A DNA stretch of 20,339 nucleotides from a virus: the IMG/VR virus record IMGVR_UViG_3300027973_000263, positions 1-20,339 of that record. One strand, given 5' to 3'. The notes under the pieces were generated by a model. It saw only the letters and a program-made list of their open reading frames with translations. It made no database searches and was not told the origin of the DNA. A program made the position numbers and the translations under genes. Shown in pieces: positions 10,169-20,339 of the stretch. Each line of letters opens with the position of its first letter. The first letter of the stretch is position 1.

Positions 10169-10588
10169 ATGCCTGAAAGTCAAAAGACAAAAATCGCGCG
10201 TGAATTGCGTGAGCGTTTTCCCGACACACCAACATTGACGTTGGCTAAGAAATTATCCAAAGAACATTTCGAAACATTCTTGGGAGTTGAAGATGCAAGA
10301 GGTGTGCTGCGTTACATTGAAGGCAAAAGAGGTAAGGTTTTACAAAAAGAAATTAGTGATAAATCTTTGTTTAGAACTGATGAAAGACCACGCAACCCAT
10401 TTAAGTTACCAAAGTCGTATGCCAAAGGTCGTAAGCACATTGACATTAAAGGTAAAAAGATATTGATACTATCCGATATTCATATTCCTTATCACGACAT
10501 CGATGCGTTGTCTACAGCCATCCAGTGCGGCATTGATGAAGGAGTGGATACGGTGGTGCTGAATGGAGTGCATTGGACTGTCATATGA
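10169..10588 (+). CDS. Metallophosphoesterase, N-terminal part (gene split by apparent frameshift)
   Basis: Residues 1-55 form a helical DNA-binding-like region (ELRERFPDTPTLTLAKKLS... RGVLRYIEGKRG). A linker with PKSYAKGRKH follows, then the calcineurin-like phosphoesterase starts with LILSDIHIPYHD (Asp103 and His105 as first metal ligands). It then reaches VVLNG and goes out of frame (VHWTVI, stop 10588). The expected next motif is GDxxD. Restoring one A between G10568 and T10569 would give GGA-GAT-GCA-TTG-GAC, joining to the downstream frame (LDCHMISDF). As written the metal-binding Asp is lost and the product stops at 139 residues. Such enzymes hydrolyse phosphate esters with two metal ions. 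A sequencing error, a real mutation or recoding are all possible. Confidence 0.7.
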   Translation: MPESQKTKIARELRERFPDTPTLTLAKKLSKEHFETFLGVEDARGVLRYIEGKRGKVLQKEISDKSLFRTDERPRNPFKLPKSYAKGRKHIDIKGKKILILSDIHIPYHDIDALSTAIQCGIDEGVDTVVLNGVHWTVI

Positions 10589-11163
10589 TTTCTGACTTTG
10601 TTAAGGATCCAAAGAAAAGAAAATTTAAGGATGAGTTGTACGCAATGCGTACTTTCATTTATGAATTGAGGCAGACTTTTCCAGATGCCGAAATAATCTA
10701 TAAAGAAGGTAATCACGAAGAAAGATACTGGAGGTATATGCGTGTGAAAGCACCTGAGTTATTTGACATTGACGCATTTGATTTCGCCTCATTGTGTCAT
10801 TTAGATAAACACAACGTGCAGTGGATAGAAGGTAAAAATAAACTAAACGTAGGCGGCCTATCAATATTTCACGGCCACGAATTTGGGAAGCAATTTATGC
10901 CATCTGTAAACGTTGCGAGAGGTCTATTTTTGAAGACAAAAGCAAATGCTATGTGCGGACATCACCATCAAACGGCTGAACACACTGAGCGAGATGTAAA
11001 CGGCAAAGTTATCACGTGCTGGGGTGTGGGTTGTCTATCCGAGTTGTCACCTGACTATAATCCATACTCAAAATACAATCACGGATTTGCTATAATTACA
11101 AAAGGCAATGGAAAAGAATTTAACGTCAAAAATTATCGCATCAATTGCGGGGTTATTTATTAG
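10573..11163 (+). CDS. Metallophosphoesterase, C-terminal part (out-of-frame continuation)
   Basis: This frame continues the phosphoesterase after the apparent base loss. It opens with DCHMISDFVKDP, then carries EGNHEERYWR (GNHE, 46-49), FHGHEFG (His100, His102) and MCGHHHQTAEHTE (129-132), the remaining metal-binding motifs of the calcineurin-like fold. No ATG precedes the conserved part; the nominal start is TTG, so this is best read as a fragment of the gene starting at 10169. Its end overlaps the next gene's start by 56 nt. Combined length would be about 330 residues, normal for the family. Confidence 0.7.
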   Translation: MDCHMISDFVKDPKKRKFKDELYAMRTFIYELRQTFPDAEIIYKEGNHEERYWRYMRVKAPELFDIDAFDFASLCHLDKHNVQWIEGKNKLNVGGLSIFHGHEFGKQFMPSVNVARGLFLKTKANAMCGHHHQTAEHTERDVNGKVITCWGVGCLSELSPDYNPYSKYNHGFAIITKGNGKEFNVKNYRINCGVIY

Positions 11164-12442: not shown

Positions 12443-13705
12443 ATTCTTTTTTAATTCGTAAAATGCCCTCATCATTATTGCGTCTGCAAAGTCGGGAGAG
12501 ATACCGTGCCTTTTTTTCAAATCTTCTTTGTTGGTTACTCTCAGCTTTCCATCGCTATCAATCTTTTCCCTACGTATCATCTCCAATTCCTTGACAATAA
12601 TGTCCTTGTAAGTTGATTCAAATGTGATTGCGTTACTGGATATCAATTCGCCTAACTTAAAATAGCAGTCGCATTTCAAATTCATATAATTGTCACGAAC
12701 TGCTTTTGATCCGTTCAGGAATCCTTTGCAATGGAGATAATCTTTGCACCCCCCCCCGATGCCATCCTCATCCACCAGTACGTTAGATAATCTTACTGAG
12801 TGATTTTTAATAAGGTCATTGATGGTATCTACCACCTCATTTATTGGTTTGTGTTTTAACACAACAAACTTTTCAGCGTGTAAGTTATTCCACACAACTA
12901 TCACTGTTCTATCGTCACCCATTCGTGCGATGTCGGCAGTGATAAACTTATCTCCCAATGTAGTGGATGGGCGAAAGCATCGCAGTAAATCATCGTACTC
13001 ATACAATCTATCCTTTGTCTCATCGTAATCCCAATCTCCTTCCAACAATCTTTTCCGGTCAATATCGGGAAGCATCTGTAATGACTCAATGTAGACTGGA
13101 GAGATGTGTGGGTTATCCGTTGGTAGTGCCTGAATGAATCTTCTATCTTTCCTTATTGAGCCATTGCGCTGCGCATCAAAGAACTCTCTGTATAACCATC
13201 CTTTGTGGGGATTGCAGGTCAATAGTCCTTTCGGGTTATCATTGATTAGTTTGTATCTGACACGTGAATTCAAAATGTTTATGCATTTTTCAGTTACCTC
13301 ACTGGCTTCATCTACAAAGTAGTCAGTAATCTCAAGCGAACCAAAGCGACCAAAGTCGGGATCACTTGGCATATCCGCCAAGTCCATCAATATAATTTGT
13401 GAGCCATTGTACCAATTGATTACGTGGTCTTGACCATTGTACGTGAAATGTTTTCCTGCGATGAGATTATATTTAGTGCATAATTCAAAGAACGTAGCAA
13501 GTGTGGATAGTCGCAACTTTTTAAGTTCAGCACGGCCTATAAGACCTCTGGTGCCTGGATACTTTAACCGTCTTTTTATTTGCCAATCGCAACCTAAAAA
13601 AGATTTTCCAGAACCAGCACTTCCGCCATACAATAATTGCCTGCATTCGTTATCAATTGCAAGGTATGAGAGCGCCTCTTTTTGTTTGTCGTGGAATTCA
13701 ATCAT
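12419..13705 (-). CDS. Terminase large subunit
   Basis: The 428-residue protein is a complete large terminase. The ATPase half has Walker A GGSAGSGKS (27-35), Walker B YFVDEASE (129-136) and the coupling motif LLTCNP (161-166). The nuclease half has Asp258 in ADIARMGDDRT, Asp312 in VLVDEDGIGGG and Asp405/Asp408 in SPDFADA. It motors DNA into the prohead through the portal and cuts concatemers. It is on the strand opposite to the structural genes, in the leftward operon, and its start overlaps the methyltransferase end by 8 nt. A run of nine G encodes IGGG and is in frame. Confidence 0.93.
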   Translation of the reverse strand: MIEFHDKQKEALSYLAIDNECRQLLYGGSAGSGKSFLGCDWQIKRRLKYPGTRGLIGRAELKKLRLSTLATFFELCTKYNLIAGKHFTYNGQDHVINWYNGSQIILMDLADMPSDPDFGRFGSLEITDYFVDEASEVTEKCINILNSRVRYKLINDNPKGLLTCNPHKGWLYREFFDAQRNGSIRKDRRFIQALPTDNPHISPVYIESLQMLPDIDRKRLLEGDWDYDETKDRLYEYDDLLRCFRPSTTLGDKFITADIARMGDDRTVIVVWNNLHAEKFVVLKHKPINEVVDTINDLIKNHSVRLSNVLVDEDGIGGGCKDYLHCKGFLNGSKAVRDNYMNLKCDCYFKLGELISSNAITFESTYKDIIVKELEMIRREKIDSDGKLRVTNKEDLKKRHGISPDFADAIMMRAFYELKKNFGKYAFA

Positions 13706-14276
13706 AGTGCATTTGGTTTATTACTTTGAAAATCTCATAAGCGACCTGAGGAACTATTGCATTTCCATATCCTTTGATGGATTCTTGCCTCCATTTTGAA
13801 AAGGTAATTCCGTCCAATTGGGTGGAAATCCCATCATTTCTGCCACAAATCGGGGATTGAGTTGGGAATCTTTCGAATGATAATTCTTTTCTTCGTCTTC
13901 CATTTGGCAATAAATTGACTTCATTGATACTCTCCTTGTTGGGAAATTGTCCAACAATGTTGGTGGATATGCTCTCGTTGAATCGCTCACGGTTGGAGTT
14001 GAAAGAAGTCCCTTGTCTAACATTCGCGTCAAAGTCATTGAGTGCATTGACCCCTCTTTTATTTGCGTTGATTTCATTGATGCACTCGCATTGGTGCTGT
14101 CGAAGGTTGTCGGTGTTGGTAGCATTCCTTTGTACAACATCATTGATAAATCTTGCTGCCTGTCTTTTTGTATTCGATTGTTCCAATACTTCTCGCTGTG
14201 TCCATGTTTGTATTCTCCCGCTATTGGTGTTGGTAGCAATGAACCATATTCGATCTTTCGAAGACCACTCCCCCAT
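13698..14276 (-). CDS. Cytosine-5 DNA methyltransferase, C-terminal part in a second frame
   Basis: This frame carries SKDRIWFIATNTNS (motif VIII type), a polar Asn-rich target-recognition-like region with NSNRERFN, then FPTQSPICGRNDGIS and motif X as GYGNAIVPQVAYEIF, and ends 8 nt into the terminase start. Motif X at the end and the coupled junction indicate that this is the original end of the gene. A -1 shift within GAA-AGA near 14262 would join it to the N-terminal frame (VVFE to KDRIWF), giving about 310 residues. No proper start precedes the conserved part, although an ATG exists at 14276. It is most likely a remnant, unless recoding occurs. Confidence 0.65.
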   Translation of the reverse strand: MGEWSSKDRIWFIATNTNSGRIQTWTQREVLEQSNTKRQAARFINDVVQRNATNTDNLRQHQCECINEINANKRGVNALNDFDANVRQGTSFNSNRERFNESISTNIVGQFPNKESINEVNLLPNGRRRKELSFERFPTQSPICGRNDGISTQLDGITFSKWRQESIKGYGNAIVPQVAYEIFKVINQMHYD

Positions 14277-14281
14277 TCCAA
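13754..14281 (-). other. Third overlapping reading frame that also looks like methyltransferase sequence
   Basis: Over the same DNA another open frame of about 175 codons reads SLLPTPIAGEYKHG, GMLPTPTTFDST and GLLSTPTVSDST, a threefold repeat, then LNPRFVAEMMGFPPNWTELP. The latter resembles motif IX of C5 methyltransferases, and the LPTP repeats resemble target-recognition regions of other phage methyltransferases. It ends before motif X. Its nominal start is TTG. It is listed because both frames look protein-like; it is probably not translated on its own. Confidence 0.35.
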
Positions 14282-14628
14282 TTAGTAAGCCCACGAACGT
14301 TTTCGCCCACAACGTAGGATGGCTCAATCTCTTGAATTGCTCTGAGCATATGCGGCCAGAGATGTCGCTCGTCGTCTTTCCCAAGTCTCTTTCCTGCTGA
14401 TGAGTATGGTTGGCAGGGGAATCCACCGGTAAGGATGTCAATTGATCCTTGGTGAATAGTGAAATCTGTTTTTGTGATATCTTCATAACTTAATGATTTT
14501 GGAAAATGATAATGTAATACTTGGCGTGGGAATGGCATCCATTCGCAATGAAAGATGTTATCCCATCCCATCCATTCGGCAGCTAAATCAAAGCCACCAA
14601 TTCCGCTGAATAATGAGCCGTGCCTCAT
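14221..14628 (-). CDS. Cytosine-5 DNA methyltransferase, N-terminal catalytic part (broken gene)
   Basis: Residues 1-124 are a clear C5-methyltransferase start: SAM-binding motif I LFSGIGGFD (6-14), catalytic motif IV GGFPCQPYSSAG (68-79, Cys72 as nucleophile) and motif VI ENVRGL (109-114). After NWNGGVVFE the frame ends at 14221 with an unrelated tail. Motif VIII-like KDRIWFIA is found at once in another frame, and about 30-40 residues normally found between VVF and HRRDR appear to be missing. The gene therefore looks damaged by a small out-of-frame deletion. The start overlaps the upstream gene by ATGA. Phage enzymes of this type usually protect phage DNA from host restriction. Confidence 0.8.
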   Translation of the reverse strand: MRHGSLFSGIGGFDLAAEWMGWDNIFHCEWMPFPRQVLHYHFPKSLSYEDITKTDFTIHQGSIDILTGGFPCQPYSSAGKRLGKDDERHLWPHMLRAIQEIEPSYVVGENVRGLTNWNGGVVFERSNMVHCYQHQ

Positions 14629-17862: not shown

Positions 17863-18258
17863 ATGAAAGGAAAAATCATACAAAGTATGAAGCCGAGAGC
17901 CAAAAAACCATTGGCAGGTGAAGCTGGAGTTCAGTTTGCGATTGTTCAATATATAAAAGTAATGTATCCGAATGCCTTGTATTGCGCATCTGCGGGCGGT
18001 ATGTTTACAAGTATGAAGCAAGCAATCAAGATGAAAATGACTGGCTATGTGAAAGGATTTCCAGACCTTCAAATATGCGAACCCAACGAAAAATATCACG
18101 GGTTATTTATAGAGGTCAAGACGGATAAAGGAGTTGTAAGCAAAGAGCAAAAGGAATGGATCAAGCAATTGAACAAACGTGGGTATTATGCTACTTATGT
18201 GAAAGGTAGCGAAGATGCCATTAAATTGATAGATGCATATTTTAAAAACGCAATATGA
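17863..18258 (+). CDS. VRR-NUC domain nuclease
   Basis: The 131-residue protein is a minimal VRR-NUC domain of the PD-(D/E)xK superfamily. Key marks are the N-terminal helix with Glu20 and Gln24 (GEAGVQFAIVQYI), GFPDLQI (Asp68), FIEVKTDKG (Glu84, Lys86) and SKEQKEWIKQLNKRGYYATYV (Gln96), ending in a helix. Such stand-alone domains in phages cut branched or junction DNA during replication and recombination. It is first in the rightward operon and overlaps the sigma-like gene by 26 nt. Metal-site residues are all present. Confidence 0.85.
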   Translation: MKGKIIQSMKPRAKKPLAGEAGVQFAIVQYIKVMYPNALYCASAGGMFTSMKQAIKMKMTGYVKGFPDLQICEPNEKYHGLFIEVKTDKGVVSKEQKEWIKQLNKRGYYATYVKGSEDAIKLIDAYFKNAI

Positions 18259-18715
18259 CCAACATCGCAGGTTAGCCATTAACCTATGCGCAGGTAACGT
18301 TTACGAAGCTGACGACCTGCTTCACGATACTTTGTTGTGCATCTTTGAAAATGGCAATGAGATAAGGAATAGCGAACACTATATCAACCACGCGCTGAAA
18401 ATCGCGCACTGGTCTAATCGCAGTCATTACCATAACACAATCCGTAAGTTCAACCAGATGAGTGATGAGCCTACTGAGTCACAATTGCGTGACTACGAAT
18501 CGGTAACCGTGTGGTTGGGTGACCGTATCACCAATGAGCAGCTTGATATATTGATTAGTCGTCTTCCTTTCTTTGAGCGTGAGGTATTTTATCTTTATGC
18601 CTTAAATGACTTTTCTTACAATGACCTGAGCATTGATACTGGCATACCAAAGAAAGTGCTATATAACGCCGTTAAATACGCAAAAAACGAAATAAAAAAA
18701 GCAATAGTCATATGA
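18233..18715 (+). CDS. ECF sigma-70-like transcription factor
   Basis: The 160-residue protein has the two-domain layout of a small sigma factor. The region 2-like part includes GNVYEADDLLHDTLLCIFEN (21-40) and NHALKIAHWSNRSHYHNTIR (52-71). The region 4-like part includes ISRLPFFEREVFYLYALNDF (108-127) and a helix-turn-helix with YNDLSIDTGIPKKVLYNAVK. It may redirect host RNA polymerase to phage late promoters, or be a degenerate sigma-like DNA-binding protein. It overlaps the nuclease gene by 26 nt and the next gene by ATGA, so it is co-translated with them. Confidence 0.7.
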   Translation: MHILKTQYDQHRRLAINLCAGNVYEADDLLHDTLLCIFENGNEIRNSEHYINHALKIAHWSNRSHYHNTIRKFNQMSDEPTESQLRDYESVTVWLGDRITNEQLDILISRLPFFEREVFYLYALNDFSYNDLSIDTGIPKKVLYNAVKYAKNEIKKAIVI

Positions 18716-19209: not shown

Positions 19210-19403
19210 GTCTGCTTCATTTCTTTTTTACGTGTTATATACTGACCGCCTTATTACTTATTGGACTGATGACAATCATGATCCTAAGGCGAACTCTACC
19301 TTTTTCAATTGAAAATTTAATAGGTATGGTATTCACTGCATTTTGTTGGCCAGTAGTGTTGGCAATGACTATAATCGAAATATTTAGAGATAATGAGAAT
19401 TAG
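19206..19403 (+). CDS. Small two-helix membrane protein
   Basis: The 65-residue protein has two hydrophobic helices, at about 4-27 (LHFFFTCYILTALLLIGLMT) and 37-58, split by a short basic loop (LRRTLPFS), and a charged end (EIFRDNEN). It overlaps the previous gene by ATGA and the next by 11 nt. Possible roles include superinfection exclusion or membrane modification, but nothing in the sequence decides this. Confidence 0.6.
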   Translation: MSLLHFFFTCYILTALLLIGLMTIMILRRTLPFSIENLIGMVFTAFCWPVVLAMTIIEIFRDNEN

Positions 19404-19704
19404 TTTTGATTTTGACGGGGTATTGTCTACCGCTAAAGGCAAAGAGATGGCCATTAAAGCCATTGAAAATAATAATCAGGTGTGGATATTGACGGCACGA
19501 AAAGACTCCGAAAATGAGGATGTATTTTCTACGGCTAAAAAGTTAGGCATACCACGTCATCATATCATCTTCACCAATGGAAAAGACAAATGGTCGTTTG
19601 TTATGCGCTATAAAATCGATGAGCATATTGATAACAACCAGGAGCAGATTGATAAGATTCTAAAAAACACCTTAGCGAAAGGAACATTATTTGTTGATAA
19701 CTAA
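19393..19704 (+). CDS. HAD-superfamily phosphatase-like protein
   Basis: The 103-residue protein starts with HAD motif I (ISFDFDGVLST, Asp6 nucleophile and Asp8), then VWILTAR (motif II, Thr34), a Lys at 64 or 66 (motif III) and an acidic end region with IDEHIDNN (Asp76, Asp80; motif IV). It is a minimal capless HAD fold, typical of small phage phosphatases that act on nucleotides or DNA ends. It overlaps the membrane-protein gene and is the last gene before the non-coding region. Substrate is not predictable from sequence. Confidence 0.7.
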   Translation: MRISFDFDGVLSTAKGKEMAIKAIENNNQVWILTARKDSENEDVFSTAKKLGIPRHHIIFTNGKDKWSFVMRYKIDEHIDNNQEQIDKILKNTLAKGTLFVDN

Positions 19705-19729: not shown

Positions 19730-19737
19730 TATCTTTG
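19730..19737 (+). promoter_or_regulatory. TAnnTTTG promoter box before the structured region
   Basis: TATCTTTG is a full match to the Bacteroidota minus-7 box. It ends 4 nt before the first stem of the structured region, placing the expected transcription start at the base of that stem. No TTG is found at the usual distance upstream. Confidence 0.45.
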
Positions 19738-19740
19738 TGG

Positions 19741-20072
19741 TGTTGAGAGTGATTAGTATTCCCCCTTTCATTTTAACTCTCAACAAAGTTATAATGATTG
19801 GGGGACTTTCTTTTATGGCGGTGCGAATACGCTTGGTAAAGGAAAGAATGCGTTACAAGGGGATGATGGCACAGCGCAGCGGTAGCATTAAGGACAAAGC
19901 CGCAAGACCATCACACGAGCCGAGAATCGTGTTAAAGTAGTGTCCAGGTCAAAGGTCAACGGTGACACTTTGAAACTTGAAGGTGAGGGACTCATTCGAC
20001 AGATTGAATCTTAATCATCAAAGGGGAATGACCACTGAGGTGAAAGTCAGTAGGATATTCTCATTCCCTTTT
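19741..20072 (+). ncRNA. Candidate structured non-coding RNA of unknown class
   Basis: About 330 nt without a convincing gene hold a set of pairings. TGTTGAGAGT (19741-19750) pairs with ACTCTCAACA (19776-19785). Its loop segment 19760-19772 pairs with 19793-19805 (TCCCCC with GGGGGA, TCATT with AATGA), forming an H-type pseudoknot. TGATGG (19864-19869) pairs with CCATCA (19908-19913) and encloses GCGGT/GCCGC (19879-19883/19899-19903). CACGA/TCGTG (19914-19918/19927-19931) and AGTGTC/GACACT (19939-19944/19964-19969) follow. A long 3' hairpin closes the element. The region also looks richer in G and C than its surroundings. I do not recognise it as tmRNA, RNase P RNA or 6S RNA. No known function can be assigned. 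Confidence 0.55.
20020..20072 (+). terminator. Terminator-like hairpin at the 3' end of the structured region
   Basis: AAAGGGGAATGA (20020-20031) pairs with TCATTCCCTTTT (20061-20072), 12 pairs with one G-U. Inside it ACTGA (20034-20038) pairs with TCAGT (20047-20051). The T run is short and belongs to the stem, so termination strength is uncertain. Confidence 0.5.
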
Positions 20073-20109
20073 GGTTCAGGATCTATTCTCTAGATTAAAT
20101 ATTATTACT

Positions 20110-20117
20110 TATATTTG
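20110..20117 (+). promoter_or_regulatory. TAnnTTTG promoter box before the last gene
   Basis: TATATTTG matches the Bacteroidota minus-7 box and ends 9 nt before the ATG at 20127. No TTG element lies 17-23 nt upstream. It follows the terminator-like hairpin, so it would start a new transcription unit with a very short leader. Confidence 0.45.
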
Positions 20118-20126
20118 TTATTATAT

Positions 20127-20339
20127 ATGATTATACTACCTGCTCAAATTGAATCAATAAAGTCACGCAAGGATAGAACTACAGCTATTGTAATAGGCAC
20201 TAATGAATTAACTCCTGATCAAGCTGGGCAAATATTCAGTCTTCAAAATTCGTTCGTCTATTGCGCTCTAAAAGAGGAGGAGTTCGCTACTAATGAAAGG
20301 GACATATTAAATGATTTGAAAGCTGACTTTGAAATAGAA
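20127..20339 (+). CDS. Conserved hypothetical phage protein, 3'-truncated by the window
   Basis: An ORF opens at ATG 20127 and stays open for 71 codons to the window end. The protein begins MIILPAQIESIKSRKDRTTA, then IVIGTNELTPDQAGQIFSLQ and an acidic stretch (ALKEEEFATNERD). I associate this layout (LPxxIES..SRKDRT...GTxELTPDQAGxLF) with small proteins in the replication and recombination region of Bacteroidota phages; their function is unknown to me. It starts a new rightward unit after the structured RNA region. Confidence 0.65.
   Translation, partial: MIILPAQIESIKSRKDRTTAIVIGTNELTPDQAGQIFSLQNSFVYCALKEEEFATNERDILNDLKADFEIE

Follow-up and report, generated by a model that had tools for sequence, protein, structure and literature searches.

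A structured phage RNA gene in which a kept promoter and 5′ pseudoknot precede one of three unrelated bodies

The virus contig IMGVR_UViG_3300027973_000263 from IMG/VR, analysed here over its whole length of 20,339 bases (the window), belongs to a virus of Bacteroidetes-type bacteria and carries portal, head and terminase genes as well as promoter boxes of the Bacteroidetes type. Near the end of the window, at about 19742–20090, lies a structured RNA gene. This RNA gene is previously uncatalogued, no Rfam family reaching its cut-off. It opens with a promoter and an H-type pseudoknot, the leader, followed by a body that takes one of three unrelated forms in related phages. This kept front end with three alternative bodies suggests an interchangeable RNA tool. 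The reading that we favour, and to which we give an even chance, is that of a phage noncoding RNA (ncRNA) cassette, in which a constant promoter and 5′ pseudoknot would be coupled to an exchangeable effector body acting in trans. The probable target of such an RNA would be the host or a host defence.

Relatives were gathered through the protein encoded downstream of the RNA, which gave 80 viral loci, most of them bearing a version of the RNA locus, and a scan of the viral collection with a leader pattern gave 60 stretches, all in this phage group as far as read. All relatives come from one unannotated viral collection, and the homologues are close relatives. Among 57 distinct stretches with the main class of leader, the body that follows is of type B1 in 22, B2 in 19 and B3 in 16, these bodies being mutually unrelated; the leader was never found without a body (0/57) or with two (0/57). 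A first-pass annotation of the window had proposed one RNA of about 330 nt. The RNA gene itself is upheld, and the single unit gives way to an invariable leader to which one of three interchangeable bodies is attached.

The leader consists of two interlocking helices on the plus strand. In S1, GUUGAGAG (19742–19749) pairs with CUCUCAAC (19777–19784), within the perfect 10-bp stem (19741–19750 with 19776–19785) that had already been pointed out in the first-pass annotation. In S2, CCCCC-UU-UCAUU (19761–19772) pairs with AAUGA-UU-GGGGG (19793–19804). A U-rich tract follows the pseudoknot (19807–19814), and is partly used in B1 by the 5′ strand of hairpin P2. In 37 distinct leaders, 93.2% of the S1 cells and 98.8% of the S2 cells are paired, against 31–55% in slid controls, these percentages being counts of sequences and not of independent events. 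Four pairs per helix, eight in total, are changed on both sides, and single pairs swap between C-G and G-C in 15 of the 37 sequences, in S1 and in S2. The covariation score is 0.286, shuffles giving 0.082 and slid structures 0.048 or less; none of 500 shuffles reaches it. These controls remove relatedness only partly. Each of the two interlocking helices thus shows compensatory changes, and the H-type pseudoknot proposed from the window is borne out by its relatives.

Just upstream of S1 lies the promoter box TATCTTTG (19730–19737, plus strand), a -7 box of the TAnnTTTG form that is kept in relatives. The annotation had set it 4 nt before the 10-bp stem; the box holds, and the gap to that stem is 3 nt. 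In 51 loci collected by BLAST and not by pattern, the box reads TAnnTTTG in 44 and CAnnTTTG in 7, and its spacing to S1 is exactly 4 nt in all 51. In Flavobacterium, the TAnnTTTG box spans positions -12 to -5 (PMC9723704), which places +1 at 19742, the first base of S1. A box at the position typical of Bacteroidetes primary-sigma promoters is therefore present in the window and its relatives, with fixed spacing, and we infer that transcription starts at 19742 by means of the host primary sigma factor. With such a start, the 5′ base of the RNA would already be base-paired, within the helix closing on the S2 hairpin loop.

A second leader, unrelated in sequence, stands at the same place in three contigs (L060, L061 and L069), which are not matched by the model of the main leader; a final scan for this second leader returned the same three contigs only. 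It reads ..TTTG, 4 nt, GUGGAC.., AUUCCG-UU-GGGGG, CA, GUCCAC, A, CCCCC-UU-CGGAAU, followed by a U tract and body B2. Both leader classes share their topology, the UU/UU internal loop, the U tract and an S1 that begins at the predicted +1. Identical topology with unrelated sequence indicates, from three sequences only, that the fold matters and not the sequence; the common topology, loop and +1 were counted in favour of the cassette.

The existence of two sequence-unrelated leaders with the same fold could also be expected if the leader alone were the functional small RNA, of about 65–75 nt, its pseudoknot serving as a terminator at the U-rich tract and the bodies being separate RNAs made by read-through. 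The conservation of the leader with all bodies and the position of the U-rich tract, immediately 3′ of S2, go in the same direction. This explanation is nevertheless unlikely, given that no bodiless leader occurs among the 57 stretches, that no TAnnTTTG box separates leader and body in the loci read, and that the U tract is re-paired in B1 into the covarying hairpin P2.

In the window, the B1 body spans 19808–20071. The alignment of 24 B1 sequences contains eight helices with 98.2% of cells paired, and 18 pairs are changed on both sides, compared with 7.9 in shuffles and 0–4 in slid structures; the further stems that had been noticed by eye are thus confirmed. The RNA sequence of the window also folds 4.0 s.d. 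below dinucleotide shuffles. Hairpin P2 (19808–19844) is the clearest B1 helix, with seven double-changed pairs, and its 5′ strand differs where a tRNA-like insert parts leader from body, yet the pairing is kept. Next comes a domain (19865–19912) with an invariant outer helix, GATGG/CCATC (19865–19869/19908–19912), and a covarying inner one, GCGG/CCGC (19879–19882/19900–19903). Hairpin P4 (ACACGA/TCGTGT, 19913–19932) has two double-changed pairs, in 10 of the 24 sequences, and a GUCC/GGAC helix (19942–19991) encloses hairpin P6 (19949–19973), which has five. The last helix is the 3′ hairpin P7 (20020–20071; arms 20020–20031/20061–20071), 94.7% paired; all these elements are on the plus strand. 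A pairing of the C run of the leader with this 3′ hairpin was considered and dropped, being not kept in relatives such as L022 and L103. Compensatory changes in homologues, which the first-pass annotation had put forward as a check, are thus found both in the leader and in the body.

P7 had been described as terminator-like, with a 3′ end of the RNA near 20072. A Rho-independent terminator consists of a stable stem and then a run of about 6–8 U. At 20020–20072 the stem is present, but the U run is limited to 3–4 nt and is not kept (TTTTGG, TTTATG, TTTTAG, TCTTGG). Beyond P7, the sequence from GGTTCAGGATCTATTCTC to about 20090 is strongly conserved, forming a 3′ tail that ends in GGATCTATTCTC (20072–20090, plus strand). 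The hairpin therefore stands, its case as a terminator is weak, and a 3′ end at 20072 is unsupported.

A protein-coding or chance origin of these features appears most improbable. The longest open reading frame (ORF) over the RNA in the window, 67 aa at 19737–19940, does overlap the RNA region, but stops and indels interrupt it in relatives. No frame is preserved among the B1 relatives, and the compensatory changes exceed those of every shuffle and every slid control. The absence of a convincing ORF, already remarked upon in the annotation, is therefore confirmed.

Body B3 has 28 double-changed pairs in the consensus fold of 14 sequences and a long-range pseudoknot with one switched pair. There is less evidence for B2 (19 sequences), with three double-changed pairs in its consensus fold, one of which, in our reading, falls in a small pseudoknot. 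B2 was also considered as a coding gene and rejected, as its frame shifts among relatives at a TTCGC..GCGAA loop and the N-terminal changes mostly alter amino acids.

In five of the 57 stretches, leader and body are separated by a tRNA-like insert, the body then being B1 or B2 in every case; L026, L035, L042 and L059 are additional loci with an insert that the strict pattern does not capture. The inserts of L026, L136 and L039 score 35–37 bits with the tRNA model RF00005 (cut-off 29). The acceptor, D and T arms of the tRNA-Leu type are kept, with unrelated stems replacing the anticodon arm in most copies, and the U tract after the leader is a nearly pure U run in these loci. The tRNA-Leu-like element is also found free-standing, mostly without a usable anticodon arm: in L112 and L121 it comes after the terminase gene, on the opposite, minus strand, in L112 right behind a TATATTTG box, and in the more distant phage L007 (3904–3997) it lies between small genes.

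The bodies are frequently exchanged. Different bodies are found in phages whose downstream genes are 92–93% identical. On the tree of the downstream gene, the body type requires 16 changes, compared with a shuffled mean of 15.7 and a possible minimum of 2, and 140 of 200 shuffles are as low; this tree rests on only 354 columns and has poor inner resolution, although its starred branches alone force several changes. The body type is thus unlinked to the tree of the downstream gene, which indicates that bodies are swapped like cassettes. A DNA-packaging RNA similar to the phi29 pRNA was rejected on this ground, as a part of the motor is not expected to be replaced by unrelated folds.

What follows the body bears on the main rival explanation, in which the RNA would act in cis: the pseudoknot would be an attenuator, or an antitermination element like put, setting the read-through of polymerase into the downstream genes, and the bodies would be further leader structure. 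Several features agree with such a role. S1 starts at the predicted +1, S2 abuts the U-rich tract, which becomes the nearly pure U run in the loci with tRNA-like inserts, the RNA locus and the next gene are on the same strand, and 19 of the 54 loci have no TAnnTTTG box ahead of the next ORF. A single cis mechanism would on the other hand not be expected to go with three unrelated bodies and with tRNA-like inserts. In addition, the next gene varies from phage to phage, and a new TAnnTTTG box precedes it after the body in most loci (35/54), two observations that speak against a cis element dedicated to a single gene. We consider a cis-acting leader as possible, on the unlikely side.

Returning to the cassette with a trans-acting body, transcription by the host primary sigma factor from the first base of S1 would tie the 5′ end of the RNA into the loop of a G:C hairpin, giving a stable transcript of about 330–350 nt. 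The knot would protect or present this 5′ end, and the body would be the effector, acting on a host molecule in trans. Frequent body replacement would then be the mark of an arms race, through host takeover or through counter-defence, as opposed to an invariable task of the phage such as packaging. Three points weigh against this scheme. In the 19 loci without a TAnnTTTG box between body and next ORF, the RNA may be transcribed together with that ORF, as its 5′ leader; the U-rich tract behind the pseudoknot could stop transcription, in which case the main product would be the leader by itself; and the transcript is predicted from sequence only, which indicates no particular host target. A more specific version, possible though less likely than not, is that of an RNA "cartridge" system, in which the fixed promoter and 5′ pseudoknot would present non-homologous RNA effectors neutralising different host defences. 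If true, this would be the RNA counterpart of the protein anti-defence loci in which genes are swapped among related phages.

To our knowledge, few phage noncoding RNAs have a known role. The locus described here amounts to a natural experiment, with one 5′ knot, three unrelated bodies, frequent exchange among close relatives and a second leader that shares only the fold. It separates the part that must stay constant from the part that is pressed to change, and makes the role of such phage RNAs directly testable by body swaps within one phage.

Around the RNA, the upstream gene (19393–19704, plus strand) is weakly 5′-nucleotidase/HAD-like. Downstream, a second TAnnTTTG box, TATATTTG (20110–20117, plus strand), is the promoter of the next gene, a conserved gene of which the window holds only the start (20127–20339, plus strand; 118 aa if complete). 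Its product is without match in Pfam or PHROG, and Cellulophaga phage phi19:1 encodes a relative with 35% identity. The RNA body is immediately followed by differing small ORFs or larger genes, depending on the phage (L021, L023, L024, L026, L033, L067, L105), one of the larger ones, of about 356 aa, being present in L105 and L115; the stretch 3′ of the RNA is thus a variable gene slot as well. On the same strand as the RNA and about 1 kb before it, a small sigma-factor-like protein (18233–18715; PHROG 1740, 4.7e-9) might drive late promoters. Elsewhere in the window (13698–14628, minus strand), the N-terminal part of a C5-cytosine DNA methylase (135 aa, PF00145, 7.5e-30) precedes overlapping ORFs that lie in other frames and have no match, a possible frameshift or truncation. 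A phosphoesterase-like gene (10169–11163, plus strand) is apparently divided between two frames that overlap, of 139 and 196 aa, which appears to result from a frameshift or a sequencing error.

Outside the phage group, no similar DNA was found in the cultured phages and plasmids searched. The leader pattern gave two stretches in GTDB (L166 and L167), both due to chance, and the leader model R1 had no hit in the genomes that hold them, nor in 395 genomes from the phylum, a search without positive control that carries little weight.

The covariance search of Rfam that had been suggested together with the first-pass annotation, run with Rfam 15 on the whole window, yielded no family at or above its gathering score; the best sub-threshold match of the Rfam searches was MIR5643 (23.1 bits, for a threshold of 94). 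A mimic of tmRNA or 6S RNA, one of the identities then envisaged, finds no support, since neither ARAGORN nor Rfam detects a tmRNA or tRNA in the window and no 6S family appears among the matches of the Rfam covariance models. The proposal of an undescribed phage ncRNA with a pseudoknot is, in contrast, sustained by the covariation and by this lack of Rfam, tRNA or tmRNA matches in the window.

Among known families, RF02932 (Betaproteobacteria-1 RNA) gives 31.8 and 26.8 bits with the B1 records L064 and L047, under its gathering score of 49.4, and no match in the window or in the remaining B1 records searched. The resemblance is between the first two hairpins of RF02932 and the beginning of B1 in these two records, and its true members also occur in phages, but it has no counterpart of the leader; B1 as a member of this family is a weak lead only, and we do not assign it there. 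A consensus-pattern search for RF02932 returned 33 stretches, four of which are true members, in phage contigs L178, L182, L183 and L188 (76–83 bits); the others that were read look like chance, many being one repeated coding sequence. The member in L188 adjoins a Cro-like repressor gene, and that in L182 precedes small genes, one of them resembling NinB by eye, and the terminase.

With tRNA-Leu (RF00005), the likeness is confined to the acceptor, D and T arms of the inserts of relatives; the anticodon arm is replaced in most of them, and the element is absent from the window. The put antitermination RNA of phage HK022 is, like the leader, a structured element with which a phage transcript begins, but is made of two stem-loops, in place of the H-type pseudoknot found here.

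GOLLD and ROOL are closer. GOLLD is a phage RNA with pseudoknots, one constant and one variable region, and sometimes a tRNA-like module in a linker (PMC12286853). These features make it conceivable that the present RNA would be a large structural element of the GOLLD/ROOL type, an RNA-only assembly enclosing or carrying a tRNA, the ribosome or another component late in infection. This is very unlikely, as the Rfam models of GOLLD and ROOL match neither the window nor the B2 and B3 loci, the length is about half or less (some 340 nt, compared with 659 nt for ROOL env-120 and more than 800 nt for many GOLLD RNAs), and the body is exchanged among three unrelated folds. The constant part is here the 5′ pseudoknot at the start of the transcript, the rest existing in three unrelated forms. 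The likeness is that of phage-encoded, pseudoknotted RNAs without assigned function, with tRNAs nearby or in the linker (PMC12286853), and GOLLD and ROOL are thus the nearest systems in kind, not by sequence.
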